Program-made: the position numbers and the translations under genes
Assembly: GCF_000381545.1 (NCBI RefSeq)
Contig: NZ_KB906686.1
Coordinates: forward strand, 1-64,000
Direction: 5' to 3'
DNA: 64,000 nucleotides
Source of the DNA: Rhodonellum psychrophilum GCM71 = DSM 17998
GTDB lineage: Bacteria; Bacteroidota; Bacteroidia; Cytophagales; Cyclobacteriaceae
Notes under the pieces: generated by a model
What the model saw: only the letters and a program-made list of their open reading frames with translations
What the model was told of the DNA's origin: nothing
Database searches by the model: none
Part shown: positions 5,100 through 49,165 of the stretch, piece by piece
How the letters are laid out: every line of letters starts with the position of its first letter
How positions within the stretch are numbered: position 1 is the first letter of the stretch

Positions 5100-6161
5100 T
5101 CACAGATTCTCCGCCAACCAATCTCCTACCTCAGAGGTTTTGTAGGCTTTTGCCCCATCTGCAATATCCTCGGTGACGATTCCCTCGGAAAGAGATCTGT
5201 TGACCACATCAGAAATCGCTGCTGCTTCGTCTTTCAGGTCGAAAGCATAATCAAACATCATTGCGGCCGATAGAATTGTCCCCAATGGATTGGCGATGTC
5301 TTTTCCTGCAGCTTGTGGATAGGAGCCATGGATCGGTTCGAACAATTTGTTCTCGGTCCCCAAAGAAGCCGAAGGCATCAAGCCCATCGAACCTGATATC
5401 ACAGAGGCTTCGTCTGTCAGGATATCGCCAAACAAATTCTCTGTAATCAACACATCATAGGCTTTCGGCCATTGGATCAGTCGCATCGCCACCGCATCCA
5501 CAAATTCATATTCAACTTTGACATCCGGGTATTCCGGAGCCAATTCCTGAACAGTTTCCCTCCAGAGCCTGGAAGTGGCCAATACATTGGCTTTGTCCAC
5601 ACAGGTCAGGAGTTTTCTGCGCTTTTGGGCCGCTTCAAAACCCATTCTGGCAAGTCTGGTAATCTCTTCCTTCGTGTACACATTGGTGTCAAAGGCTTTC
5701 GTTCCCTGTTCGTTTCTACCTCTAGGCTCACCGAAATAAATCCCACCGGTCAATTCCCTGAAAAACACGAAATCCACACCATCCACCCGATCAAGTTTCA
5801 AAGGTGATTTGTGAACCAATGAGGGGAAAGTGAAGGTTGGACGGACATTTGCAAAAAGCCCCAATTTCTTTCTCATGGCCAACAATCCTTGTTCAGGCCT
5901 TACCTTTGCTTTGGGATCGTTGTCATATTTAGGATCACCAATGGCGCCGAAAAGCACTGCGTCTGCTCTCAAACAAACAGCATGGGTACTCTCCGGATAA
6001 GGATCTCCAGTCAAATCGATGGCGGCGGCACCCACTGGCGCCGTCTCAAAATGAATGGTATGACCAAATTTCTTGGCGACTGCTTGTATTACTTTTACTG
6101 CTTGGGCAATTACTTCTGGGCCTATGCCATCACCCGGCAATAGTGCGATATTCATTTCCAT
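5100..6161 (-). CDS. leuB: 3-isopropylmalate dehydrogenase
   Basis: LeuB oxidatively decarboxylates 3-isopropylmalate to 2-ketoisocaproate with NAD in leucine synthesis. The N-terminus [13 protein letters not shown], the substrate-site stretch [16 protein letters not shown], and the metal/substrate region around [15 protein letters not shown] are all present. ATG at 6161 (or 6155, two codons later) gives about 353 residues, normal for the family. The frame is open back to 6209 but that extra part is basic and not family-like. The start lies inside the 3' end of the preceding LeuA-like gene (overlap about 26-32 nt), so translational coupling is likely. It is the last gene of the operon. Confidence 0.95.
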
Positions 6162-7728
6162 AAAAATTCTTGTTTTCTGAATCCGTATTCGGTTTGTTTT
6201 TACTGTCAATCTTTGCGATGATATTGAGCATTCTTTCGGTGGCCATCATGGCAGCCACGGTCTGATCACTGTCCAGACCTTTGGTTTTGAATATCTTTCC
6301 ATATTCCCAGGTAATCACCGTTTCCACAAAGGCATCTGTTTTACCACCAGGAGGGATACTCACATGGTAATCGGACAAAAGCGGAAGTTCTTTGTTCAGT
6401 GATTTATAAATCTTCTTCAGCGCCTTCATGAAAGAATCGTACTGTCCATCTCCCGAAGCACTCTGCTCATAATATGCGCCATGGATTTTCATCTTGAGCT
6501 GTACCGTCGGTTTCAAACCCTTGGAATGGGTCATGTGATACCCTTCGATACTGATGTCTTTGGCAACAGAGTTGTTTTGGAGCACATCGGAAATGATGTA
6601 TGGCAAATCTTCGGTGGTGACTCTTTCCTTTTTATCGCCAAGTTCGATGACCTTTTGGGTCACTTTGGCCAATTCGTCTGGCTCCAGGGAAATGCCCAAT
6701 TCCTGAAGATTTTTCAGGATATTGGCCTTTCCGGAACTTTTGCCAAGTGCGTATTTCCGCTGTCTGCCAAAGCGCTCGGGCAGGAGATCGTTGAAATAAA
6801 GATTTTTTTTATTGTCCCCATCTGCGTGGATTCCTGCGGTTTGGGTAAAGACGTTTTCCCCAACCACAGGCTTGTTGGCAGGAATATGCTGTCCTGAAAA
6901 CTGCTCCACGAGTTTGCTTACGCGGAAAATCTTGTTCTCCTGAACATTCAATCGGTAATCGGTGAAATCCTTCAATACGGCGATCACACTTTCCAAAGGT
7001 GCATTTCCAGCCCTCTCTCCCAAACCATTGATGGTGGTATGAATGCCGACAACTCCATTATAAATGGCCTCCAGCACATTGGCCACAGAAAGATCGTAAT
7101 CATTATGGGCGTGAAAGTCAAAGTGACAATCCGGGTATTCGGTGGTGATCAGCTTGATGAAATGCGCCACTTCACGAGGGTGAAGCAAGCCCAATGTATC
7201 GGGAAGCATGATTCTCTTGACTGGGAGTTGACTCAGGAAACCGATCAATTCCATGGTATAAGACATGGAATTTCGCATTCCATTGGACCAATCTTCCAGA
7301 TAAACATTGACGTGGATCCCTTTTTTGTTTGCGTAGGCTATGCTTTCTCGAATTTCTTCGAAATGCTGCTCTTGCGTTTTCCTAAGTTGATGGGTCAGGT
7401 GATTCAAAGACCCCTTGGTCAACAGGTTCATGACCTTTGCCCCTGAGTCGGCTATCCAATCCACGGAGGTTGGGGTATCCACAAACCCAAGGACTTCAAC
7501 CTTATCCAGAAATCCCTTTTCGGAAGCCCATTGGGTGATCTTCTTCACGCCCTCCATTTCCCCTTCAGAAACCCGGGCAGAAGCCACTTCTATCCTGTCC
7601 ACCTTCAATTCCTCCAACAACAACTTGGCTATTTGGAGTTTTTCAGAAGGCAGAAAGGAAACCCCAGAGGTCTGTTCTCCATCCCTCAAGGTAGTGTCCA
7701 TGATTTCTATTTTCCTATGATGTCCCAT
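6130..7728 (-). CDS. Second 2-isopropylmalate/citramalate synthase-like enzyme
   Basis: A HMG-CoA-lyase-like TIM barrel with N-terminal [18 protein letters not shown] and the metal-binding HAHND motif ('[11 protein letters not shown]'), a [12 protein letters not shown] motif, and a C-terminal LeuA-type allosteric domain (about residues 400-515). It is clearly a paralogue of the leuA product at 9858-11366, not a duplicate: the active-site neighbourhood differs (SGVSF against PGCQL). Candidate activities are 2-isopropylmalate synthase or (R)-citramalate synthase, the latter giving a threonine-independent route to isoleucine. Sequence alone does not decide. ATG 7728 (MGHHRKIEI) is preferred. The frame is open to 7839, six bases after leuD, so a 37-residue N-terminal extension cannot be excluded. 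Confidence 0.85.
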
Positions 7729-7845
7729 TTTTGTGCTTTCCTTTGATAAAATAGACAAGGATCCAATCCCATGCTGTTTACAATAATCCTTCGCTGAGAA
7801 AATTTCACGCTTTGAGGATTTCAATAAATGGGGATACAATCTTGC

Positions 7846-8436
7846 TTACTTCCCCGCAACAAATTCCGCGATTTCATCTTTGATATTCAAGAGATAATCG
7901 ATGTCATCAAAACCGTTTTTCATATTTTCCTTTTTATAGGAATTGATGTCAAAACTTTCTGACTGACCCGTACTGAGCAAGGTTATCGTCTGCCGATCAA
8001 TATCCACTTCAACTTCCGTCTCTGGATCTGCAGACACGGCATTGAAAAGAACATCTGCAAATTCTGGGCTGATGGTCACCGGCAAGACGCCGATATTGAG
8101 GCAGTTGTTTTTAAAGATATCCGCAAAGAAGCTGGAAACCACACACCTGAAGCCATAATCATAGAGGGCCCAAACAGCATGTTCCCGACTGGAACCTGAA
8201 CCGAAATTCTTTCCAGCCAAAAGGATTTTTCCGGAATAAGTGGGATCATTCAAAACAAAATCATGTTTGGGATTGCCCTCCACGTCGTATCGCCAATCCC
8301 GAAAAAGATTGTCACCAAAACCCACCCTTTCGGTAGCCTTCAGGAAACGCGCAGGAATGATTTGATCCGTATCCACATTTTCAGCGGACAAGGGAACCAC
8401 GGTACTTCTTAATGTATTGAATTTATCGTAAGCCAT
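7846..8436 (-). CDS. leuD: 3-isopropylmalate dehydratase small subunit
   Basis: LeuD pairs with LeuC to interconvert 2- and 3-isopropylmalate. The aconitase swivel-domain signature GKNFGSGSSREHAVWAL is present, and the N-terminus contains ENVDTDQIIPARFLK as usual. 196 residues, full length. It follows leuC by 17 bp, consistent with one transcript and balanced subunit synthesis. Confidence 0.96.
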   Translation of the reverse strand: MAYDKFNTLRSTVVPLSAENVDTDQIIPARFLKATERVGFGDNLFRDWRYDVEGNPKHDFVLNDPTYSGKILLAGKNFGSGSSREHAVWALYDYGFRCVVSSFFADIFKNNCLNIGVLPVTISPEFADVLFNAVSADPETEVEVDIDRQTITLLSTGQSESFDINSYKKENMKNGFDDIDYLLNIKDEIAEFVAGK

Positions 8437-8453: not shown

Positions 8454-9854
8454 TTAAAACACTTCCCTTGGATCTGTAATCCTCCCTGTCACCGCAATGG
8501 CAGCGACAGTAAGCGGACTGGCCAGCAAAGTTCTCGCGCCGGGACCTTGTCTGCCCTCAAAATTTCTGTTGGAGGTCGAAACCGCATATTTCCCTGAAGG
8601 GATTTTATCGTCATTCATCGCCAGACATGCCGAGCAACCCGGTTGTCTAAGCTCAAAACCTGCCTCTTCGAGGATTTTGACCAATCCTTCCTCGTGGGCC
8701 AATTTCTCAACTTCCCTGGACCCTGGCACTATCCACGCGGTGATGTTGTCCGCTTTTCTCTTTCCCTTGACAAATTCAGCCACAGACCGAATGTCCTCGA
8801 TCCTGCCATTCGTGCAACTTCCGACAAAGACATAATCCATCTTTTTCCCCAGGATGGATTCACCGGCCTCAAAGCCCATGTATTCCAAGGATTTCAGGAA
8901 AGATGTTTTGTTACTGCCCTCCATTCCTGCAGTTGTTGGGATCAAATCATTGATTTTAATTCCCATTCCCGGATTGGTGCCGTAGGTAATCATTGGAGCT
9001 ATGTCCGCTGCATCAAAATGGTATTCCTTGTCAAAAATGGCTCCCTCATCTGTTTTCAGGGTTTTCCAATACGCTACTGTCTTGTCCCATTCTTCCCCTT
9101 TGGGGGCATATTGTTTCCCCTTTAGGTAATTGAAGGTCGTTTCATCCGGAGCGATCAATCCTCCCCTGGCACCCATTTCTATACTCATGTTGCAGATCGT
9201 CATCCTTGCTTCCATGCTTAGACTTTCAATGGCAGATCCCGCATATTCCAGAAAATAACCAGTACCGCCACTGGCGGATATTTTGGCGATGATGTAAAGG
9301 ATGATGTCTTTTGAGGTAATTCCTTTTCCAAGTTCACCATCTACGGTAATCCGCATTTTCTTGGCTTTGGACTGCATGATGCATTGGGTCGCAAAGACCA
9401 TTTCGACTTCGGAAGTTCCGATACCGAATGCAATGGCACCAAAGGCACCATGCGTTGACGTATGGCTGTCACCACAGACGATGGTCATTCCCGGTTGCGT
9501 GATCCCGAGTTCGGGTCCAATAACGTGAACGATTCCATGGTGCGCACTTCCCAGATCGTGCAATTCAATATTGTATTTTTTGCAATATTCCCTCAGCTTT
9601 TCAACCTGCATGCGGGAGAGTTTGTCCTTTATGGTCTTGTCCTGATCCACAGTGGGTACATTGTGATCAGGAGTTGCGATAGTCCTTTCGGGATGAAGCA
9701 CACCGATTCCTCTTTTTTCCAAATTCAGGAAAGCCACGGGACTGGTCACTTCGTGTATAAAATGCTTGTCAATGAAGAATACATCTGGGCCATCGGTTAC
9801 TGAGCGAACCACATGGGCATCCCATATTTTGTCAAATAATGTTTTCTTTTCCAT
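8454..9854 (-). CDS. leuC: 3-isopropylmalate dehydratase large subunit
   Basis: A 466-residue aconitase-family catalytic subunit. The [4Fe-4S] ligand Cys residues are in '[12 protein letters not shown]' and 'GCSACLAMN'; substrate-site motifs '[14 protein letters not shown]' and '[12 protein letters not shown]' are visible. It starts with the usual '[13 protein letters not shown]'. It is three bases after leuA and 17 bp before leuD, so it is tightly operonic. Nothing unusual was seen. Confidence 0.97.
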
Positions 9855-9857
9855 CTT

Positions 9858-11366
9858 TTATAGGATCACTTTATCTTTAACGGGTATTTTATTTAGGGCA
9901 TCCACAAATGCCTCAGCAGAAGCCAACACGATATCAGTATTGGAAGAAAAACCATAATAAGGACGCTCTCCCTGCATCAACCGCATGTGTACTTTTGCCT
10001 GATCATCACTTCCTGCGGTAATGGCTTGAATCAAAAATTCCTCCAATTCCACCTGCGGCTTCACTATTTTCTCAATCGCTTTCAATACGGCATCCACTGG
10101 ACCATTCCCTTCTGAGGTGGCAAAGTGTGTCTTCTCCCCTACTTTGAGCTCAACATTGGCTTTAATGGTTCCATTGGATTCATAGCTTACTTTCACCAGT
10201 TCAATGAATGTGGAGTCTTCGATGTACTTGCCCACCAAGGAAAGTAAATCTTTGGGGCCAATGTCTCTTTTGGAGTCGGCCACAATCAAGAAAGCTTCAT
10301 ACACTTCCCTCAATTCCTCACCTTCCAAATGAACACCCAAGGCATCCAAATGATGTTTTAATGCTGCCCTACCACTTCTGGCTGTTAGTACGATGGAAGA
10401 TTCCAAAACGCCAACCTCCTTGGGATCGATGATTTCATAGTTTTCGCGGTGCTTCAAGACACCATCCTGATGAATTCCCGAAGAGTGGGCAAATGCATTT
10501 CTCCCCACAATTGCTTTATTGGGTTGAACCGGCATGTTCATCAGCTTGGAGATCAATCGGCTGGTTCCGTAGATCAAAGGGGTATTGATGTTGGTGAAGA
10601 CTGGGATGTCGTGGTGGCATTTGATGGCCATCACGACTTCCTCCATGGAGGTATTTCCCGCCCTTTCTCCGATACCATTGATCGTCACTTCCACCTGTCT
10701 TGCCCCATTTTGAACCCCAGCGATGGTGTTGGCCGTAGCCATTCCCAGATCATTGTGGCAATGGGTGGCAAGGATGGCTTTGTCGATATTCGACACATTT
10801 TCCCTCAGGTACCGGATGATGGCACCGTATTGTTCAGGAAGGCAATAGCCTGTGGTATCGGGAATGTTGATCACCGTGGCGCCAGCCTTGATGGCTTTTT
10901 CCACGATTCTCGCCAAAAATTCCATTTCTGCCCTTCCCGCATCTTCTGCGTAAAACTCCACATCCTCCACAAAACTCTTGGCATATTTCACTGCCTGAAC
11001 TGCCCTCTCGATAATTGCATCGGGGGTGGATCGAAGTTTGTATTGAATGTGGTAGGGAGAAACACCGATTCCGGTGTGAATTCTCCCTTTTTTGGCATAT
11101 TGGAGGGAAGCTGCTGCTACTTCAATATCTTTTTCCACTGCCCTCGAAAGGGCGCAGATAATAGGATTGGTGACTGCCTTAGAAATCTCCAATACAGAAT
11201 TAAAATCCCCTGGGCTGGAAATTGGGAATCCAGCCTCAATGATATCGACTCCTAGTTCTTCCAAAGCCTTGGCCACTACTATTTTCTCCTGGGTATTTAA
11301 CTGACAACCAGGAACCTGCTCTCCATCACGAAGGGTGGTATCGAATATCCATAGCTTTTCACTCAT
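9858..11366 (-). CDS. leuA: 2-isopropylmalate synthase
   Basis: LeuA condenses acetyl-CoA with 2-ketoisovalerate, the committed leucine step. The catalytic barrel shows [16 protein letters not shown], the divalent-metal motif [12 protein letters not shown], and [14 protein letters not shown]. The C-terminal regulatory domain (about 385-495), which binds leucine in the family, is present, so feedback inhibition is expected. 502 residues, normal. Gaps to ilvC (3 bp) and leuC (3 bp) show a tight operon. Confidence 0.96.
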
Positions 11367-11369
11367 AAT

Positions 11370-12413
11370 TTAGTTGTTTTCGGGTCTTAATTTTCTGACG
11401 GTAGCACCTGCTTGCCACATCTCAGAATCTCTCAATTCTTTCAATTCCACTTCCAGTTTCTCCCTGTAATCGTCTTTACTGTTGGAGTCAATGGATTTTT
11501 GCGCTTCCTGCCCGGTTTTTACACTTTCGTATAATTTTTCAAATACCGGTTTGGTCGCATCCCTAAATGGTTTCCACCAATCCAAGGCACCTCTTTGGGC
11601 AGTCGTGGAGCAGTTGGCATACATCCAATCCATTCCATTTTCAGCAACCAAAGGCATCAAACTTTGTGTCAATTCCTCAACGGTTTCATTGAAAGCTTCA
11701 GAAGGGGTATGGCCGTTTGCTCTCAACACTTCATATTGCGCAGCAAAAATCCCTTGTATCGCACCCATCAAAGTTCCTCTTTCTCCCGTAAGATCCGAGG
11801 TCACTTCTCTGTAAAAATCGGTTTCGAAAAGGTATCCAGAACCAACGCCGATCCCAAGGGCGATCACCCTGTCTTTTGCTTTGCCGGTACCGTCCTGAAA
11901 GATTGCATAGGAAGAATTCAATCCTCTTCCTTCGACAAACATTCTTCTCAAGGAAGTTCCGGAACCTTTGGGAGCCACCAAAATCACATCCACATCTGGA
12001 GGAGGGATAATCCCGGTTTTTTCTTTATACGTAACCCCAAAGCCATGGGAAAAATACAATGCTTTGCCAGGCGTCAGGTGTTTTTTCACCATTGGCCATG
12101 CGGAAATCTGTCCGGCATCGGAGAGCAAAAACTGAAGAATAGTGCCTTTTTCGCAAGCTTCTTCCAGTTCAAACAATGTTTTGCCTGGAACCCAGCCGTC
12201 AGAGACTGCTTTATCCCAAGTTTTTGAGCCTTTTCGCTGTCCTACGATGACATTGAAACCATTGTCTTTAAGATTGAGAGCCTGACCAGGCCCTTGAACG
12301 CCGTAACCCAATACTGCAATGACTTCGTCTTTCAACACTTCTCTTGCTTTCTCCAAAGGGAATTCCTCCCGGGTGACTACATTTTCTTCTACTGATCCGA
12401 ATTTCAGTTTCAT
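11370..12413 (-). CDS. ilvC: Ketol-acid reductoisomerase
   Basis: IlvC isomerises and reduces acetolactate or acetohydroxybutyrate with NAD(P)H and Mg2+. The Rossmann motif appears as LGYGVQGPGQALNLKDNG and the cofactor loop as GQRKGSKTW, whose basic and Ser residues favour NADPH in this family. The catalytic C-terminal part includes DLTGERGTLMGAIQG and ETVEELTQ. At 347 residues it fits the short class-I type. It lies between ilvN (17-bp gap) and leuA. Confidence 0.95.
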   Translation of the reverse strand: MKLKFGSVEENVVTREEFPLEKAREVLKDEVIAVLGYGVQGPGQALNLKDNGFNVIVGQRKGSKTWDKAVSDGWVPGKTLFELEEACEKGTILQFLLSDAGQISAWPMVKKHLTPGKALYFSHGFGVTYKEKTGIIPPPDVDVILVAPKGSGTSLRRMFVEGRGLNSSYAIFQDGTGKAKDRVIALGIGVGSGYLFETDFYREVTSDLTGERGTLMGAIQGIFAAQYEVLRANGHTPSEAFNETVEELTQSLMPLVAENGMDWMYANCSTTAQRGALDWWKPFRDATKPVFEKLYESVKTGQEAQKSIDSNSKDDYREKLEVELKELRDSEMWQAGATVRKLRPENN

Positions 12414-12429: not shown

Positions 12430-12930
12430 TTATTTTAAATATTTGTCTAAAGTATCCATGGGTTTGGCCACCGCCACCCTGCCTGACCTGGCAAATTCGA
12501 GTATGTTAAATTCTTTCAATATTTCCAGTAAGGACTGGGTATCCTCCTTGTGCCCTGTAAATTCGATGACCACAAAGTCCTTTTCCGCCGCGATGATATG
12601 GGCATTGAACTGCCTGATCACTTTTTCCAATCTGGGGTCAAGGCTTTCTATCGGGATTTTATAAAGTGCGATTTCCTGATAGACCACTTGATCATCGGTA
12701 TAATAAAACGCCTTGATCACATCGATGATCTTTTCGATCTGCTTGGACAATTGAATGACTTGTTCTTCAGAAGTGGTCAGTTCGATCGTGATTTTGTAAA
12801 TGCCATCTTCCCGGCTTTCGGAGGCTGTCAAGGCGTCGATATTGATTCCCCTTCGCGTGAATATGATGGTAATCCTATTGAGTATCCCTATGAAATTTTC
12901 CGTGAAAACAGAAATGGTATAACGGTTCAT
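12430..12930 (-). CDS. ilvN: Acetolactate synthase small (regulatory) subunit
   Basis: A 166-residue regulatory subunit. The ACT domain occupies about residues 1-75 with the pattern 'YTISVFTENFIGILNRIT' and 'GINIDALTASESREDGIYK', followed by the C-terminal domain of the small-subunit family. It binds IlvB and confers valine feedback sensitivity. The 10-bp gap to ilvB supports stoichiometric expression. Confidence 0.94.
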   Translation of the reverse strand: MNRYTISVFTENFIGILNRITIIFTRRGINIDALTASESREDGIYKITIELTTSEEQVIQLSKQIEKIIDVIKAFYYTDDQVVYQEIALYKIPIESLDPRLEKVIRQFNAHIIAAEKDFVVIEFTGHKEDTQSLLEILKEFNILEFARSGRVAVAKPMDTLDKYLK

Positions 12931-12940
12931 AAATCTGGTT

Positions 12941-14623
12941 TTAGCTTAATCTTACTTCTTCTACGGAACATCCTGTGGCAATCATCGGGAAGACATTGTC
13001 TTCTTTCTCCACCACTACTTCCAGGAAGTAAGGGCCGTCATGAATGAACATATCTGCTACGGCTTCACTGAGCTCTGCGCGTCCAGTTACTTTACTCCCT
13101 TTGATTTTATAGGCCTCCGCGATTTTGACAAAATCAGGGTTTTCCAGTTCCGTGAAAGAATACCTTTTGTCAAAAAACATCTGCTGCCATTGTCGGACCA
13201 TCCCGAGATAGTTATTGTTCAGCAAAACAATCTTTACAGGTGCTTTGGTCTGCATGATCGTACCCAATTCCTGGATCGTCATTTGAATTCCTCCATCTCC
13301 ACAGACACAGATCACTTGCCTGTTAAAGTCATGCAGTTGGGCACCCAAAGCTGCCGGAAGGGCAAATCCCATGGTACCCAATCCACCTGAAGTCACTTGA
13401 GTCCTAGGCTGTTTGTAGTCAAAATATCTCCAGGCAATCATTTGGTGCTGCCCCACATCTGTCACCAAAATGGCATCGTCGGCTTTGTATTCATTGATAA
13501 ACCGAATGACTTCACCCATGGTCAACCCAACTTTCGTCGGCGACAAATCATTGGCACACACTACTTTTTTCTCTTCTTTTTCCAGTTCCCTGAAACGTTG
13601 CAACCAGTCTTCATGCTTGTTTGCATGTACAGCTTCGATCAGCATTTCCAGACTTTGGCGACAATCTCCCAAAATAGGGACTGTGCATTTGACATTTTTG
13701 TCGATCTCTGCGGGATCAAGTTCTAAGTGGATGACTTTTGCTTGTTTGGCATAGCGCTTCAAATCCCCTGTAACCCGATCATCAAACCGCATTCCCACGG
13801 CGATGAGCACGTCACATTGATTGGTAAGGATATTTGGTGCATAGTTGCCGTGCATCCCCAATTTCCCTACATAATGCGTGTTCATTTCTGACAATGCACC
13901 GGAACCCAAGAGTGTTGAAGCTGCAGGAATCCCTGTTTTGTCAACGAAGGCTTTCAATTCCTTATCGGCTTTTCCAATCAAAACACCTTGTCCAAAGACA
14001 ATAAATGGGCGCTCTGCAGCATTGATCAACTCTGCAGCTTGCTGAACAGCTTCCTTACTGACTTCCGCATAAGGCTTGTAAGAACGAATGCCGAGACAAG
14101 GGATATAGTTGAATTCGGCAAATTCTGTCTGGGCATTCTTGGTGATGTCCACCAATACCGGACCCGGACGACCGGATCGGGCTATATGAAAAGCTTTGGC
14201 AATGGCGGGAGCAATGTCTTCCGCTCTTCTAACCTGGATGTTCCATTTGGTTCCTGGCATAGAAATGCCCACCATGTCCGTTTCCTGAAAAGCATCTGTG
14301 CCCAAAAGATGTGCTGCGACTTGCCCCGTGATACAGACCAAGGGTGTGCTGTCAATCTGGGCATCGGCAATGCCAGTGATCAGGTTCGTTGCCCCCGGAC
14401 CGGAGGTGGCCAAGGCAATTCCTACCTTGCCGGAGACGCGCGCATATCCTTGGGCGGCATGGATTGCTCCTTGCTCATGACGGGTCAAAACATGTTTGAT
14501 TCTGTCACTGTAATCATATAAAGCATCATACACGGGCATGATGGCACCTCCAGGATAACCAAATATATATTCGGCATTTTCGGCAATAAGGGATCTAACT
14601 ACGATATCCGCTCCTCTTATCAT
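12941..14623 (-). CDS. ilvB: Acetolactate synthase large (catalytic) subunit
   Basis: A thiamine-diphosphate enzyme condensing pyruvate with pyruvate or 2-ketobutyrate. The N-terminal domain carries the catalytic Glu region 'GYPGGAIMPVYDAL...RHEQGAIHAA'. The FAD-binding middle domain and the C-terminal ThDP/Mg motif 'CGDGGIQMTIQELGTI...LNNNYLGMVRQWQ' follow. 560 residues, full length. It is the second gene of the ilv-leu operon, 20 bp after ilvD. Confidence 0.97.
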   Translation of the reverse strand: MIRGADIVVRSLIAENAEYIFGYPGGAIMPVYDALYDYSDRIKHVLTRHEQGAIHAAQGYARVSGKVGIALATSGPGATNLITGIADAQIDSTPLVCITGQVAAHLLGTDAFQETDMVGISMPGTKWNIQVRRAEDIAPAIAKAFHIARSGRPGPVLVDITKNAQTEFAEFNYIPCLGIRSYKPYAEVSKEAVQQAAELINAAERPFIVFGQGVLIGKADKELKAFVDKTGIPAASTLLGSGALSEMNTHYVGKLGMHGNYAPNILTNQCDVLIAVGMRFDDRVTGDLKRYAKQAKVIHLELDPAEIDKNVKCTVPILGDCRQSLEMLIEAVHANKHEDWLQRFRELEKEEKKVVCANDLSPTKVGLTMGEVIRFINEYKADDAILVTDVGQHQMIAWRYFDYKQPRTQVTSGGLGTMGFALPAALGAQLHDFNRQVICVCGDGGIQMTIQELGTIMQTKAPVKIVLLNNNYLGMVRQWQQMFFDKRYSFTELENPDFVKIAEAYKIKGSKVTGRAELSEAVADMFIHDGPYFLEVVVEKEDNVFPMIATGCSVEEVRLS

Positions 14624-14643: not shown

Positions 14644-16320
14644 TTAATTATCCGTAACGCAACCTTCTGATGCGGTCGAGACCAATTTATTGTACTTTTT
14701 GAGCGTTCCCTGAAGTCCGCTGAGGTCTTTGTTGACCCAATGTTTTTTCCTTTCTGCAAATTCTTCCTCCGAAACCGCACATTTGAGTTCCAAGGTATCG
14801 GCATCGATGGTGATGACGTCCCCATCCTGAAGCAAGCCAATAGGTCCGCCCAAGTAGGCTTCCGGCGTCACGTGTCCCACCACAAATCCGTGGGTTCCGC
14901 CCGAGAATCTGCCGTCGGTGATCAAAGCGCAACTGGAACCAAGTCCGGCTCCGATGATCATGGAAGTGGGTTTCAGCATTTCCGGCATGCCTGGTCCACC
15001 TTTGGGACCGATGTATCGGATCACGATGACATCACCTTCCTGAATTTTTTTGTTTTTGATGGCCTCGTTGGTTTCCAGTTCAGAATTGAAAACTTTGGCT
15101 GGGCCAGTGAAGGATTTCCCTTCCTTGCCGGAGATTTTGGCAACTGAACCTTGCGGTGCAAGGTTCCCATGTAGGATACAGAGGTGACCTGTTTTTTGTA
15201 ATGGTGTTTCAATGGGATGAATGACGTTGACCATGGAAGGCACAATTGGAGTAACATCCGCAAGGTTTTCCGCCAGGGTTTTGCCCGTCACCGTCATGCA
15301 ATCTCCATGAAGGAGACCATTGTTCAACAGGTATTTCATAAAGGCCGGCAATCCTCCTTGCTCATGAAGATCTTCCATCAAAAATTTTCCCGAAGGCTTG
15401 AAATCTCCCAAAACCGGGGTGGAATGGTTGATCCTTTTGAAATCCTCCAAGGTAAAATCCAAACCGGCTGTCTTGGCGATGGCCAAAATATGCAAAACCG
15501 CATTGGTACTTCCTCCTAAGGAAACGGCTACCCTTACGGCATTTTCAAGGCTTTTAAGGGTAATGATGTCTTTTGGTTTTAAGTCTTTTTCCAAAAGGAT
15601 CTTCATGTACTTGGAGACATCCCTACATTCCTGAATTTTCTCCGGGGAATTTGCGGGATAAGACCCACTGTATGGCAATGACATCCCCATGGCCTCAATG
15701 GCCGAGGACATCGTGTTGGCAGTATACATTCCACCACAGGCCCCAGCTCCCGGGCATGCATTTTGGATCACACCTTGGTAATCTTGGTCACTGAGCTCAC
15801 CTTTGATCCTTTTTCCATAGGCTTCAAAAGCGGATACGATATTCAGTTTTTCGCCTTTATAATTACCGGAACGAATGGTGCCGCCATAGACCATGATCGA
15901 GGGTCTGTTGATCCTGAGCATCCCCATGATAGCACCCGGCATGTTTTTATCACAACCGGCCACCGCGATACAGGCATCAAAGGAATGTCCCGAAATAAAG
16001 GATTCGATGGAGTCCGCGATGATCTCTCGGGATACGAGGGAATAGCGCATTCCGTCCGTTCCCATCGAGATACCGTCAGAAATCCCGATGGTATTAAAAA
16101 CCAAACCGGTCAGATCATGCGCCGAGGAGGCTTCTTTGATCAGACCGGCAAAGTCATTCAGGTGCATATTGCAGGGGTTACTTTCATAGCCACAACTGGC
16201 TACCCCTACAAAAGGCTGTTTCATCTTTTTATCACTCATTCCGGTGGCGTAAAGCATGGCTTTCCCTGCCGGATGTTCTTCATTGTCACTGATCTCCCAA
16301 CTGTATTTTTTTAGACTCAT
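14644..16320 (-). CDS. ilvD: Dihydroxy-acid dehydratase
   Basis: IlvD dehydrates 2,3-dihydroxy-acids to the 2-keto acids of valine and isoleucine using an Fe-S cluster. Cluster-binding Cys positions are seen in [16 protein letters not shown] and [16 protein letters not shown]; the C-terminal '[18 protein letters not shown]' motif is also present. 558 residues. It is the first structural gene of the operon, with its ATG 30 bp after the leader terminator U-tract, which fits control by attenuation. It is distinct from the IlvD/Edd paralogue at 37193-38908. Confidence 0.96.
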
Positions 16321-16350: not shown

Positions 16351-16379
16351 AAAAAAAAGTGCCTCATCATCTGAGGCAC
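16351..16379 (-). terminator. Leader terminator (attenuator) before ilvD
   Basis: On the minus strand the RNA reads GUGCCUCA, loop GAUGA, UGAGGCAC, then eight U. The 8-bp G/C-containing stem with an uninterrupted U8 tract is a textbook intrinsic terminator. It sits between the leader peptide and ilvD, so read-through is required for operon expression. Confidence 0.9.
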
Positions 16380-16421
16380 CTAGCATTATATGGATGTTTG
16401 TCTAAATAGCCTAGCGCCTCA
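16372..16421 (-). promoter_or_regulatory. Antiterminator arms of the ilv-leu attenuator
   Basis: Directly after the leader stop codon the minus strand reads TGAGGCGCTAG (16421-16411). It can pair with CTAGGTGCCTCA (16383-16372), which contains the 5' arm of the terminator, giving 11 base pairs with one G-U and one single-base bulge. The two pairings are mutually exclusive. A ribosome that finishes the leader covers TGAGGCGC and lets the terminator form. A ribosome stalled on Ile/Val/Leu codons leaves it free to form the antiterminator. Confidence 0.85.
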
Positions 16422-16475
16422 TTACTTTATATCAATGAGAATAATAATGCTTAGAGGAGTGACTATTTTCAACAT
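16422..16475 (-). CDS. ilv-leu operon leader peptide (17 aa)
   Basis: ATG at 16475 and TAA at 16424-16422 encode MLKIVTPLSIIILIDIK. Ten of 17 residues are Ile, Leu or Val, including an III-L-I run. The stop codon abuts the antiterminator arm with no spacer. Composition, position before ilvD and the mutually exclusive hairpins downstream together identify it as a regulatory leader peptide sensing charged branched-chain tRNAs. Confidence 0.87.
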   Translation of the reverse strand: MLKIVTPLSIIILIDIK

Positions 16476-16513: not shown

Positions 16514-16544
16514 CAATATTAAAGCTCTATTTCCACACTTACAA
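16514..16544 (-). promoter_or_regulatory. Candidate promoter of the ilv-leu operon
   Basis: On the minus strand TTG (16544-16542), a 20-nt spacer and TAATATTG (16521-16514) fit the Bacteroidota -33 TTG / -7 TAnnTTTG pattern apart from one base. The start site would fall near 16507, about 30 nt before the leader peptide ATG, giving a leader RNA of roughly 155 nt to the terminator. Confidence 0.55.
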
Positions 16545-17122: not shown

Positions 17123-17130
17123 TATCTTTG
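17123..17130 (+). promoter_or_regulatory. Candidate -7 box of ispE
   Basis: TATCTTTG matches the Bacteroidota -7 consensus TAnnTTTG exactly. It lies 24 bp before the ATG at 17155, so a transcript would begin just before that codon and not include the upstream in-frame TTG at 17128. No good -33 box is apparent. Confidence 0.5.
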
Positions 17131-17154
17131 CATTTCAATTTTGAAACTCCCGAT

Positions 17155-17961
17155 ATGATCAGTTTCCCAAATGCCAAGATAAACCTTGGCCTCCATGTGA
17201 CCGCCAAAAGGAAAGATGGCTACCATGAACTAGAAACCTGCATGGTACCCATTCCGCTCTTCGAAGCGTTGGAAATGATATTGGACAACAAGACCGTCTT
17301 CACCAGCACCGGCCTACCCATACCTGGAGTCGACAAGGACAACTTGATTTTGAAAGCATTCAAATTGCTCAGAAAGGATTTCAACGACCTGCCAAACCTG
17401 AATATTCACCTGCACAAAAACATTCCCATCGGCGCTGGATTGGGAGGCGGATCTGCCGATGCTGCCTTTGCACTCAAGTTGATGAACAACCTTTTTGACC
17501 TGCATCTCGAAGATTGGTTTTTGGAAGACTATGCCGCGCAATTGGGAAGCGACTGTCCATTTTTCATCGAAAACACTCCAAAAATCGCCACTGGCAGAGG
17601 CGAAATCTTGGAGCCTGTTTCCGTTGACCTGAAAGGGAAATACCTCGTCTTGATCAATCCACAGATCCACATTTCCACCAAAGATGCCTACAGCGGCATT
17701 TCCCCAAAAAAGCCTTTGGGCAATCTCAAAAATATTCTTGCGGACCAAAGCCTTTGGAAAGCGCATTTGGTGAATGATTTTGAGGCCAGCATTTTCCCTA
17801 AATATCCGGAAATCGCCCAGATCAAAGACCGACTCTATGATTTGGGGGCCTTCTATGCAGCCATGTCTGGTTCAGGGGCGACGGTTTTTGGGCTGTTTGA
17901 TTCAAAACCCGAATCGGTAGAATGGAAAGAGGGTTATTTTGTGTTTGGGGCGGAAATGTAA
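17155..17961 (+). CDS. ispE: 4-diphosphocytidyl-2-C-methyl-D-erythritol kinase
   Basis: IspE phosphorylates CDP-methylerythritol in the non-mevalonate isoprenoid pathway. GHMP-kinase motifs are clear: N-terminal FPNAKINLGLHVTAKRKDGYH, ATP-binding PIGAGLGGGSADAAFAL (about residues 90-106), and C-terminal MSGSGATVFGLF. ATG 17155 gives 268 residues, normal for the family and consistent with the -7 box at 17123. It stands alone; the decayed toxin-antitoxin pair follows. Confidence 0.95.
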   Translation: MISFPNAKINLGLHVTAKRKDGYHELETCMVPIPLFEALEMILDNKTVFTSTGLPIPGVDKDNLILKAFKLLRKDFNDLPNLNIHLHKNIPIGAGLGGGSADAAFALKLMNNLFDLHLEDWFLEDYAAQLGSDCPFFIENTPKIATGRGEILEPVSVDLKGKYLVLINPQIHISTKDAYSGISPKKPLGNLKNILADQSLWKAHLVNDFEASIFPKYPEIAQIKDRLYDLGAFYAAMSGSGATVFGLFDSKPESVEWKEGYFVFGAEM

Positions 17962-37192: not shown

Positions 37193-38908
37193 ATGGAAGA
37201 AAAGAAATTAAGAAGCCAGGAATGGTTTGGCCGTAAAGGTAAGGACGGTTTTATCTACCGCGCATGGATGAAAAACCAAGGTTTTCCCAACCATCTTTTT
37301 GAAGGTAAACCTGTGATCGGCATCTGCAATACTTTTTCAGAACTCACCCCCTGCAATGCGCACTTTCGGGATTTGGCCGATGCCGTCAAGAGAGGTGTCT
37401 GGGAGGCCGGTGGTTTTCCACTTGAATTTCCGGTCATGTCACTCGGAGAATGCACGATAAAACCGACAGCCATGCTCTTTCGCAACTTGGCCAGTATGGA
37501 TGTGGAAGAGAGCATCCGCGCCAATCCACTCGATGGGGTAATCCTGATGTGCGGTTGTGACAAAACCACTCCCTCCCTGGTGATGGGCGCCGCAAGTGTC
37601 AACATCCCGACGATGGTACTCTCAGGAGGCCCAATGCTGGCAGGTAGATTCAAAGGGAAGAAAATCGGCACCTCGGATCTTTGGCGGTTTGTCGAAGAAT
37701 TTAAAAAAGGTGAATTGTCCCAGGAAGAATTTATCGCTGCAGAAAGTGCCATGGCAAGATCCATAGGCCACTGTGCACCCATGGGCACTGCCTCCACCAT
37801 GGCCGCCATGGTGGAATCCCTAGGTTTGGCGCTACCCGACAATGCCACTATCCCGGCGGCGGATTCCAGAAGAAAAGCCATGGCCCATATGGCTGGAATC
37901 AACATCGTCGAAATGGTCCGTTCTGACCGGAAAATGAGCGATATCCTCACCAGAAAATCCTTCGAAAACGCCATCATGGTGAATGCCGCCTTGGGCGGGT
38001 CGACCAACTTTATCATCCATCTCCTAGCTATCGCGGGGAGAATGGGCATCGAACTTTCCATTGAGGACTTTGACCGATTCTCTGCCGACATTCCCCTGAT
38101 CGCGAATGTTCAACCTTCGGGAGAACATTTTGTAGAGGATCTTTTTTACGCGGGAGGTCTTCCGGCGGTGATGAAGGAAATCTCCGGCAAGCTCCATTTG
38201 GATACCCTTACGGTCAATGGCAAGACGATCGGAGAAAATATTCAAAAGGCAGTATGCTATGACAGGGAACTGATCGGAACTTTGGAAAAACCTTTCAAAC
38301 CGGAATCTGGAATCGCCGTACTTAAAGGCAATCTCTGCCCGAACGGCGCTGTGCTCAAACCATCGGCCTGTACGCCATCCCTACTTCAGCACCGAGGTCA
38401 GGCAGTCGTCTTTGAAGACATCGATGACTACAAAAGCAGGATAGACGACCCAAATCTGGATGTTACCGCGGACTCTGTTTTGGTACTGAAAAATGTCGGG
38501 CCAAAAGGCTATCCAGGAATGCCTGAAGTGGGCAACATGCAAATCCCCTTCAGGCTACTTTCCCAAGGAGTCAAAGACATGGTCAGAATATCGGACGGTA
38601 GGATGAGCGGAACAGGCTACGGCACTGTCGTCCTCCATATTTCCCCGGAAGCCGCCATCGGTGGCAACCTCGCCTTGGTCCAAAATGGGGACTGGATACA
38701 TCTTGATGTGCAAAACCGAAGCTTGACCCTTGAGGTGGGAGACGAAGAACTTGCGGAAAGAAGATTGGGATTTAAACCCCTGGATTTGGGTTACGCCAGA
38801 GGCTATGCAAATATGTTCATCCAACATGTTACCCAGGCACACGAAGGAGTGGATTTTGATTTTTTGAAAGGTGGCTCAGGCCCCGAAGTAAAAAGAGATT
38901 CACATTGA
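37193..38908 (+). CDS. IlvD/Edd family sugar-acid dehydratase
   Basis: A 571-residue Fe-S dehydratase. The cluster/Mg motifs are seen in 'NTFSELTPCNAHFRDLA', 'CGCDKTTPSLVMGAA' and 'GHCAPMGTASTMAAM', and 'ISDGRMSGTGYGTVVLHISPEA' near the C-terminus. The 'CDKTTP' and 'CAPMGTAST' versions (not CDKNMPG / CPGAGACGG as in IlvD at 14644) mark the sugar-acid branch that includes arabinonate, xylonate and gluconate dehydratases. Substrate not determined. It runs into an SDR gene after 3 bp, which fits a sugar oxidation and dehydration pathway. Confidence 0.88.
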   Translation: MEEKKLRSQEWFGRKGKDGFIYRAWMKNQGFPNHLFEGKPVIGICNTFSELTPCNAHFRDLADAVKRGVWEAGGFPLEFPVMSLGECTIKPTAMLFRNLASMDVEESIRANPLDGVILMCGCDKTTPSLVMGAASVNIPTMVLSGGPMLAGRFKGKKIGTSDLWRFVEEFKKGELSQEEFIAAESAMARSIGHCAPMGTASTMAAMVESLGLALPDNATIPAADSRRKAMAHMAGINIVEMVRSDRKMSDILTRKSFENAIMVNAALGGSTNFIIHLLAIAGRMGIELSIEDFDRFSADIPLIANVQPSGEHFVEDLFYAGGLPAVMKEISGKLHLDTLTVNGKTIGENIQKAVCYDRELIGTLEKPFKPESGIAVLKGNLCPNGAVLKPSACTPSLLQHRGQAVVFEDIDDYKSRIDDPNLDVTADSVLVLKNVGPKGYPGMPEVGNMQIPFRLLSQGVKDMVRISDGRMSGTGYGTVVLHISPEAAIGGNLALVQNGDWIHLDVQNRSLTLEVGDEELAERRLGFKPLDLGYARGYANMFIQHVTQAHEGVDFDFLKGGSGPEVKRDSH

Positions 38909-48040: not shown

Positions 48041-49165
48041 TTACACGTAGTTGTTTAGCATTACCGGCATTACCAACATGAGGATATCCTCGTTGTCTGA
48101 CTTGTCAGACGGCACGATCAATCCAGCCCTGTTTGGCGCGCTGAACTTCAAGGTGACTTCTTTTGAAGAAATATTGTTAAGCATTTCCACTAAGAATTTG
48201 GCGTTGAATCCGATTTCGATGTCGTCACCGTTATGCTCACAAGACAACCTTTCGTTGGCTTCATTGGAGAAGTCAAGATCTTCGGCAGAAACCTGAAGTT
48301 CGCTTCCGGTCAATTTCAAACGCACCTGATGGGTGGTTTTGTTGGCATAGATCGCAATCCTTTTCAAAGAGCTCAAAAATTCGATCCTGTCGATGGTCAT
48401 GTGGTTTGGATTGTCCACAGGGATAACATTTTCATAATCCGGGAAACGCTCATCGATCAACCTACAGATCATTTTGATGTTGTTAAAATTGAAGTAGGCG
48501 TTGGAATTGTTGAATTCCACGGTTACCGGTAGGTTTTCCGAAGGAAGCGTTGACTTCAAGAGGTTGAGTGCTTTTCTTGGAATGATGATGCTGGCGGCGT
48601 CAGGAGCGGCGATGTCCACTCTTCTGTACCTGATTAGCCTATGTCCATCCGTTGCCACAAAAGTAGCATTGGTGGGACTCAAGTTGATATAAACACCTGT
48701 CATTGCAGGTCTCAGTTCGTCGTTGCTGGTCGCAAAGATGGTATTGCTGATCGCGCTGGTCAAGACTTCTGTGGACATTTCCACGGTTGTCGCATTGGTA
48801 ACGCTTGGTATTTTAGGGAAATCGGTCGCATTTTCACCGGCCAGTTTGTAGCGGCCGTTGTCAGAGCTGATTTCTATGCTATAAGTATCTGGATCAATGC
48901 TGAAAGTTACCGGCTGTTCTGGCAGGTTTTTCAGTGTCTCCATCAAAATCTTGGCTGGAACGGCGATGTTTCCATCCTCTTTGGATTCCACATCGAGTTC
49001 GGTGATCATGGAAGTCTGTAAATCGGATGCGGTGATGGTCAATTTGCCATCCTTAATCTCAAAAAGAAAATTTTCCAAAATGGGAACTACAGGATTGGTT
49101 GTCACCACTCCGTTAATCGATGAAAGCTGCTTCAAAAGAGCAGAAGAGGAAACAATAAATTTCAT
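48041..49165 (-). CDS. dnaN: DNA polymerase III beta subunit (sliding clamp)
   Basis: A 374-residue clamp with three similar domains. Characteristic stretches are 'FIVSSSALLKQLSSINGVV' at the N-terminus, 'ATDGHRLIRYRR' in domain 2, and the C-terminal 'ILMLVMPVMLNNYV' corresponding to the conserved VMPMR(L) end, here VMPVMLNN. It encircles DNA and tethers the polymerase. It is not next to dnaA here, which is common in Bacteroidota. The gap to gldG is 151 bp. Confidence 0.95.
   Translation of the reverse strand: MKFIVSSSALLKQLSSINGVVTTNPVVPILENFLFEIKDGKLTITASDLQTSMITELDVESKEDGNIAVPAKILMETLKNLPEQPVTFSIDPDTYSIEISSDNGRYKLAGENATDFPKIPSVTNATTVEMSTEVLTSAISNTIFATSNDELRPAMTGVYINLSPTNATFVATDGHRLIRYRRVDIAAPDAASIIIPRKALNLLKSTLPSENLPVTVEFNNSNAYFNFNNIKMICRLIDERFPDYENVIPVDNPNHMTIDRIEFLSSLKRIAIYANKTTHQVRLKLTGSELQVSAEDLDFSNEANERLSCEHNGDDIEIGFNAKFLVEMLNNISSKEVTLKFSAPNRAGLIVPSDKSDNEDILMLVMPVMLNNYV

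Follow-up and report, generated by a model that had tools for sequence, protein, structure and literature searches.

A candidate ribosome-mediated attenuator ahead of the ilv-leu genes of Rhodonellum psychrophilum and its conservation among relatives

The ilv, leu, trp, his and thr attenuators of enterobacteria comprise a residue-rich leader peptide, a protector, an antiterminator and an intrinsic terminator, with the helices in the order 1:2, 2:3, 3:4. A candidate element of this kind was analyzed in a 64,000-nt stretch of DNA from the Bacteroidota member Rhodonellum psychrophilum, hereafter the window. The residue-rich leader, protector, antiterminator and terminator are common to both, a likeness of general plan. 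The element in the window differs from the enterobacterial attenuators in the location of segment 2 at the stop codon, in ilvD as the first gene, in another promoter-like motif and in its Bacteroidota host.

Upstream ORFs (uORFs) rich in codons for branched-chain amino acids (BCAA) are also found before ilv genes in the ilvB-II, ilvB-OMG and Leptospira ilvB uORF motifs, which the available text of PMC10272879 reads as transcription attenuation. According to the same text, the ilvB-II uORFs usually have 15–17 codons and are accompanied by terminator/antiterminator structures (PMC10272879). These motifs are reported there from Corynebacterium, 'various bacterial phyla' and Leptospira and precede ilvB, whereas the element in the window precedes ilvD (PMC10272879). 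No family of the Rfam copy used, which may or may not include the three motifs, matched the window at gathering score. Candidate ilvB leader peptides of Actinobacteria combine a run of BCAA codons with a terminator before ilv genes (PMC1262725). Unlike in the window, their ORFs overlap the terminators, and their mode of action is left unclear by the authors in the accessible part of the paper (PMC1262725). A literature search, with subscription papers mostly outside its coverage, found no paper on BCAA leader-peptide attenuation in Bacteroidota; Lopatovskaya et al. 2010, a comparative paper cited in the available texts of PMC4833913 and PMC10272879, may contain a description of this kind.

All parts of the element are located on the minus strand. 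The initial annotation had described a 17-codon Ile/Leu/Val leader, an arm abutting its stop codon and a GTGCCTCA/TGAGGCAC-T8 terminator before ilvD, and all three were found in place. The leader ORF MLKIVTPLSIIILIDIK (16422..16475), recognized from the sequence and from relatives, runs from the ATG at 16475-16473 to the TAA at 16424-16422 and contains 10 I/L/V residues among its 17 codons. Its Ile4-Val5 codons form the core of segment 1, ATAGTC (16461..16466), which pairing counts and duplex prediction indicate as the 5' side of the protector, and CCTC at 16457-16454 offers additional segment 1 pairs with GAGG at 16420-16417. Segment 2, TGAGGCGCTAG (16411..16421), is the 5' arm of the antiterminator, and its first base directly follows the stop codon; GGCTAT (16406..16411) is the 3' side of the protector helix. 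Segment 3, CTAGGTGCCTCA (16372..16383), is the 3' arm of the antiterminator, and its part 16381-16372 is at the same time the 5' arm of the terminator. Segment 4, TGAGGCAC with T8 (16351..16366), includes the 3' arm of the terminator and the U-run. The terminator (16381-16351), written AGGTGCCTCA-GATGA-TGAGGCACTT, has stem arms at 16381-16372 and 16366-16357, and the eight T residues at 16358-16351, two of them inside the stem, end before the ilvD ATG at 16320.

Upstream of the leader, a putative promoter (16514..16544) was predicted from the sequence and its recurrence in relatives; it consists of TTG at 16544-16542, a 20-nt spacer and TAATATTG at 16521-16514. We take this TTG-N20-TAATATTG motif to resemble the -33/-7 promoter consensus of Bacteroidota. 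As a raw count, the 130 nt ahead of the leader ATG contain the pattern TTG-N17-23-TANN(A/T)TTG in 59/59 relatives, and its spacer is 20 in 55/59. A script search of both strands of the whole window for an ATG-ORF with 6/8 I/L/V residues before a terminator revealed two sites, namely the leader and a site at 48738 (+), which is antisense inside a 374-aa frame. Among 12 terminator-like sites on both strands between 4700 and 16400, the ilv-leader terminator is the sole one with 10 pairs; the number of sites itself is uninformative because shuffles yield 12.5.

Downstream of the leader, nine genes were found on the minus strand, namely ilvD (14644..16320), ilvB (12941..14623), ilvN (12430..12930), ilvC (11370..12413), leuA (9858..11366), leuC (8454..9854), leuD (7846..8436), a citramalate/isopropylmalate synthase-like gene (longest frame 6130..7839) and leuB (longest frame 5100..6209, start uncertain). 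The nine-gene ilv-leu operon of the initial annotation is therefore present in gene content: eight genes are named by curated NCBIfam cut-offs, and the eighth in order matched CimA/IPMS models, all below cut-off (best NF042433, 690 bits with a cut-off of 950). The genes behind the leader thus make the amino acids that would be sensed (8/9 BCAA genes by curated cut-off). Intergenic gaps are 3 to 20 nt across the first seven genes (ilvD to leuD); the gap before the eighth gene is 6 nt with the longest frame and 117 nt with the ATG at 7728, which is its likely start. All nine genes would form one transcript. The presence of a CimA-type synthase between leuD and leuB suggests either a second isopropylmalate synthase or isoleucine synthesis by way of citramalate. 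Elsewhere in the window (37307-38851, +), a second IlvD-kind protein is encoded, which is 33% identical to ilvD.

To sample relatives, ilvD was identified at E ≤ 1e-150 in 349/390 genomes of the window's family. The best named match is Aquiflexum gelatinilyticum (87% ilvD identity). Upstream regions were taken at an ilvD identity of at least 77% among the matches listed, which gave 123 genomes (own included) and, with two named loci, 125 sequences; L003/L117 and L004/L199 are possible same-species duplicates within this set. A terminator was detected by script in 120 sequences, 102 of which were distinct, and 59 remained under 0.93 similarity. Five sequences whose terminator the script missed (L134, L139, L140, L151 and L198) have, by eye, the same terminator with an imperfect stem and were excluded from the folding and swap tests. 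The folding set comprised 56/59 sequences, since the leader assignment of L180, L191 and L224 was uncertain.

The initial annotation had proposed an alignment of the ilvD upstream regions of relatives as a check, and in this comparison the leader codons are kept. A leader with 4/8 BCAA residues and a terminator were found by script in the correct order in 120/125 close homologues, and an ORF with 5/8 BCAA residues in 121/125. The ORF recorded for nine of the 121 is a different short one lying further upstream; the true leader was seen for L003, L114 and L122. By eye, the four homologues that fail at 5/8 do have a short ORF at this position, but one with fewer BCAA codons, and the leaders of L180 and L187 also contain few of them. 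The I/L/V content of the leaders of the 102 distinct relatives averages 57% (lowest 25%) vs 23% in the window's operon genes. In 102/102 distinct relatives, the distance from the first stop base to the start of the segment 2 core, GRRGC, is 1 to 11 nt (offset 1 in 47, where it overlaps a TGA stop, 4 in 13 including the window, 6 or 7 in 28, and 10 or 11 in 14).

Codon choice in the 102 leaders is skewed relative to the window's operon genes: CTC/CTA account for 55% vs 16% of Leu, GTC for 74% vs 21% of Val and ATT for 82% vs 35% of Ile. This skew may tune tRNA sensing. In addition, leader codons 12-14, ATTCTCATT (16442-16434, minus strand), are strongly conserved at the nucleotide level.

The conserved parts of the aligned leaders are the BCAA codons, the stop codon and the arms, with no further conserved core. 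This tells against a leader that binds a metabolite or tRNA (T-box, riboswitch) or a protein-dependent attenuator, with the ORF included incidentally, although a terminator with alternative helices would by itself fit such a leader. The Rfam search gave 0 matches at gathering score for the window and four sub-threshold matches for the leader, the best of them at E 2.3, so that neither matched a T-box or riboswitch covariance model. We regard this explanation as very improbable.

To evaluate the spread of the element, we scanned 241 genomes of the order with its covariance model (R1), and 23/241 genomes gave a match at E ≤ 0.01. Fifteen of these were strong (E ≤ 1e-7), all in the window's own family; eight weak matches (E 9.4e-4 to 8.1e-3) were in other families and were treated as chance. 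Two more weak matches occurred in genomes already carrying a strong one, and at least ten genomes of the window's family had no R1 match in the 241-genome search. The own genome gave a single strong match; three others had E ≥ 1, and one of these is the same locus read on the opposite strand. The leader sequence is not conserved outside the close group. A strict script nevertheless found an ILV leader with a terminator in 33/121 distant ilvD upstream regions (88 without), vs 0/363 in controls shuffled by non-overlapping two-base blocks, a procedure that only approximates a dinucleotide shuffle. The 33 positives include Flavobacteriaceae (Meridianimaribacter L013, Lutibacter L016 and L018, Dokdonia L026), a Saprospiraceae MAG (L077) and a MAG labelled Ignavibacteriae (L005). 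Thus, the strategy is present in several Bacteroidota families, even where the sequence is not. In some Chitinophagales and Flavobacterium leaders, the antiterminator arm seems from the sequence to be inside the ORF end, and therefore the count of 33/121 is not a survey.

These data also bear on the assumption that the hairpin is a mere terminator of another transcript, or a product of chance, and that the short ORF is untranslated. Short ORFs are common and the promoter is a prediction, both of which agree with it. However, the next gene-sized upstream frame (17128-17961, +) is divergent, and therefore no upstream transcript seems to need a terminator. The ORF, arms and terminator are also conserved together, and none of the shuffled distant regions imitated the combination, which makes the assumption hardly credible.

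The pairing of the segments was analyzed in the 59 sequences. The 3:4 terminator had 98.5% of cells paired and 11 double-changed cells (slid registers ≤58.4%), and the 2:3 antiterminator had 96.2% and also 11 (slid registers ≤47.6%). Segment 3 is common to both helices, so the mutually exclusive antiterminator and terminator proposed initially are upheld. The base triple common to 2:3 and 3:4 (columns 80, 132 and 147) changed jointly from G-C-G to A-U-A in about 11/59 sequences: column pair 80-132 changed in 11 sequences and 132-147 in 10, with the eleventh as U-G. For cells paired, double-changed cells and covariation score, the observed value was reached by 0/500 shuffles in all three helices. 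The covariation anticipated for both helices was thus found in part, namely in the joint change of the triple, but counts of double-changed pairs and of pair types were unexceptional vs shuffles. For 2:3, the only pair with double changes was reached by 468/500 shuffles and the pair types by 500/500; for 3:4, the two such pairs were reached by 34/500 and the pair types by 443/500. The covariation is thin, and one inherited event may account for the 11 double-changed cells. RNAalifold on the 59-sequence alignment reported the terminator only, as expected, because the helices exclude each other.

An unusual economy had been claimed for this leader, namely two helices and no protector. This claim is unsupported, since a conserved 1:2 helix was found between the leader codons and the arm region: ATAGTC, the fourth and fifth codons, base-pairs with GGCTAT where the antiterminator arm ends. 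In the fixed register, 77.7% of cells were paired in the 59 sequences (slid registers ≤48.0%). The 14 double-changed cells are distributed across 5/6 pairs, and the slid register +3 has 16, above the observed number; in the shuffle controls, five double-changed pairs were reached by 29/500 and the pair types by 34/500. Duplex energies between the leader and the stop-proximal region ranged from -10.9 to -23.4 kcal/mol in 30 of the 120 sequences. The partners vary among relatives: ATAGTC with GGCTAT or GACTAT, plus CCTC/GAGG, in the window's group; GGTC with GACC in L141 and L166; GTTCAGC with GCTGAAC in L088 and, by reading, in L087 and L089; and TAGTC/GACTA in others.

Swap tests revealed that leaders prefer their own partner. 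The cognate 1:2 energy was -16.19 vs -13.65 (sd 0.25) for permuted partners in the 102 distinct sequences, a near-set contrast that is inflated by relatedness, which these tests do not remove. On average, 23% of non-cognate arms outpaired the own arm in this set, and the energies of L199, L130 and L223 (-10.9 to -11.9) were not better than the permuted mean. Twenty of the 33 distant positives were divergent sequences chosen by a 2:3 energy of -11 or better, and in them the values were -15.71 vs -12.76 (sd 0.62), with 0/2000 permutations as low; examples are TTCTATACT/AGTATAGAA in L095 and TTCTATTCT/AGAATAGAA in L111. Synonymous-codon shuffles that keep the peptide gave a moderate effect for 1:2, with a mean z of -1.47 in the near set (27/102 below -2, window -2.66) and -1.05 in the distant set (5/20 below -2). 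As judged from the sequences, the 1:2 protector helix is present and conserved; its protecting action is a proposal, and it is weaker than 2:3 at equilibrium in the window. The idea that the closeness of the arm to the stop codon replaces a protector holds in one part: the closeness is real and general (102/102), but it occurs alongside the protector.

Folding was then modelled with a ribosome footprint that masked the first A-site base together with the 15 nt upstream and the 14 nt downstream of it. In the window RNA cut at segment 3 and free of ribosomes, 2:3 had about 10.6 expected pairs and 1:2 about 1 at equilibrium. A ribosome whose A site was placed on any of codons 2-14 left 2:3 with about 10.6-10.7 expected pairs; placement on codons 15-17 lowered this to 7.9-5.7, and placement on the stop codon lowered it to 0. 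Segments 1 and 2 alone formed 1:2 with 17 expected pairs, and the full free leader of the window formed 1:2 and 3:4 together (MFE -32.5, z -2.70; 1:2 part alone, z -1.95). In the 56 sequences, a helix was counted as formed at ≥5 expected pairs. Segments 1 and 2 alone formed 1:2 in 55/56, a ribosome at the stop codon left 2:3 in 0/56 and 3:4 in 56/56, and a stall at a mid-leader BCAA codon before segment 4 was made gave 2:3 in 56/56 and 1:2 in 0. When the relatives were cut at segment 3 and ribosome-free, 2:3 formed in 44/56 and 1:2 in 23/56, and therefore protection needs kinetics. In the whole leader at equilibrium with a mid-leader stall, 3:4 formed in 44/56 and 2:3 in 12/56; as 3:4 mostly forms despite the stall, the model needs co-transcriptional order. 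Equilibrium folding singles out only the stop-codon position of the ribosome. A ribosome is estimated to cover up to 12 nt past the stop codon in the accessible text of PMC4833913, which fits the position of segment 2.

Such results are compatible with an attenuator that works through 2:3 and 3:4 alone, in which nothing but a ribosome at the stop codon blocks segment 2 and an untranslated leader reads through. The segment 2 core is within 8 nt of the stop-codon end, or overlaps it, in 102/102 distinct relatives, 2:3 beats 1:2 at equilibrium when the window RNA is cut at segment 3 and ribosome-free, and no ribosome position except the stop abolishes 2:3. On the other hand, 1:2 is conserved, is kept where segment 1 sits elsewhere in the leader (L087-L089) and recurs with other sequences in distant taxa. 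Because of this 1:2 evidence, the reading without a protector was dropped as the best account and retained as an unlikely rival.

We consider it likely that the ilv-leu leader is a classical ribosome-mediated attenuator with three alternative helices, because 1:2 is conserved and leaders prefer their own partner in both the near and distant sets. Our confidence is lowered by the fact that 2:3 forms alike without a ribosome and with one at codons 2-14, and by several covariation controls that were not exceeded. Of the Ile/Leu/Val attenuation claimed initially, the exclusive helices, the conservation and the pairing across relatives stand, and the two-helix economy is unsupported.

For the three-helix attenuator, we infer the promoter, the translation of the leader, the timing, the protector strength and the amino-acid response as follows. 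Transcription would start about 30 nt before the leader ATG, as the conserved promoter-like motif suggests. On the nascent RNA, 1:2 would form first and may pause the polymerase. When Ile-, Leu- or Val-tRNA is short, a ribosome would stall in the BCAA codons, cover segment 1 and free segment 2, which would then pair with segment 3, block the terminator and allow the ilv-leu genes to be read. When BCAA-tRNAs are plentiful, the ribosome would reach the stop codon and cover segment 2, and the 3:4 terminator would form. After release, or without translation, 1:2 could presumably re-form and again favour termination.

Other amino-acid leaders were searched (his, thr and trp) in 13 chosen close genomes. 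A WWW short ORF was found upstream of trpE (Anth_synt_I_N match) in 13/13 (L303-L315; own genome L308, G000:C5), with an intrinsic terminator detected in 11/13 and alternative pairing predicted, without a control, in six of the six examined; together these features suggest a trp attenuator. A His-rich short ORF (≥3 His in 8) precedes hisG in 13/13 genomes (L276-L288; own genome L277, G000:C3). Ten of these 13 leaders end in HHSS, and most have a TCCTCC-stop-GGAGGA inverted repeat and a TATCGCCC stretch after the stop codon. A terminator between leader and hisG was detected in 0/13, and therefore regulation may act on translation or depend on Rho. Before the homoserine dehydrogenase gene, short ORFs that are rich in Thr/Ile and end in TTG or TITG were found by script in 8/13 genomes (L317-L329), and the own-genome leader (L328, G000:C14) ends in TITG by eye. 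The long homoserine dehydrogenase gene (about 820-850 aa) is probably thrA. The thr leaders contain an inverted repeat around the stop codon and a TATAGCCC stretch, resembling the his leaders. In a separate search, ACATATNGCCC was considered as a general element and dropped: the own genome gave 5 matches vs 3 for the reversed control, one at the thrA-like gene.

The short ORFs rich in Trp, His or Thr that precede trpE, hisG and the homoserine dehydrogenase gene in close genomes point the same way, to a leader-peptide strategy in Bacteroidota. Bacteroidota mostly lack Shine-Dalgarno signals. A broader assumption, which we regard as doubtful, is that Bacteroidota use leader-peptide attenuation generally (ilv, trp, possibly his and thr) and that the arm next to the stop codon is favoured so strongly in this lineage that an untranslated leader reads through, opposite to the enterobacterial default, with the protector mainly a pause signal. 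A start-codon mutant, being either off or on, would test whether the protector dominates in a Bacteroidota leader. In sum, a well-conserved candidate ribosome-mediated attenuator stands ahead of nine BCAA genes in a Bacteroidota genome; it most probably belongs to the classical three-helix type, a mechanism that is already known.
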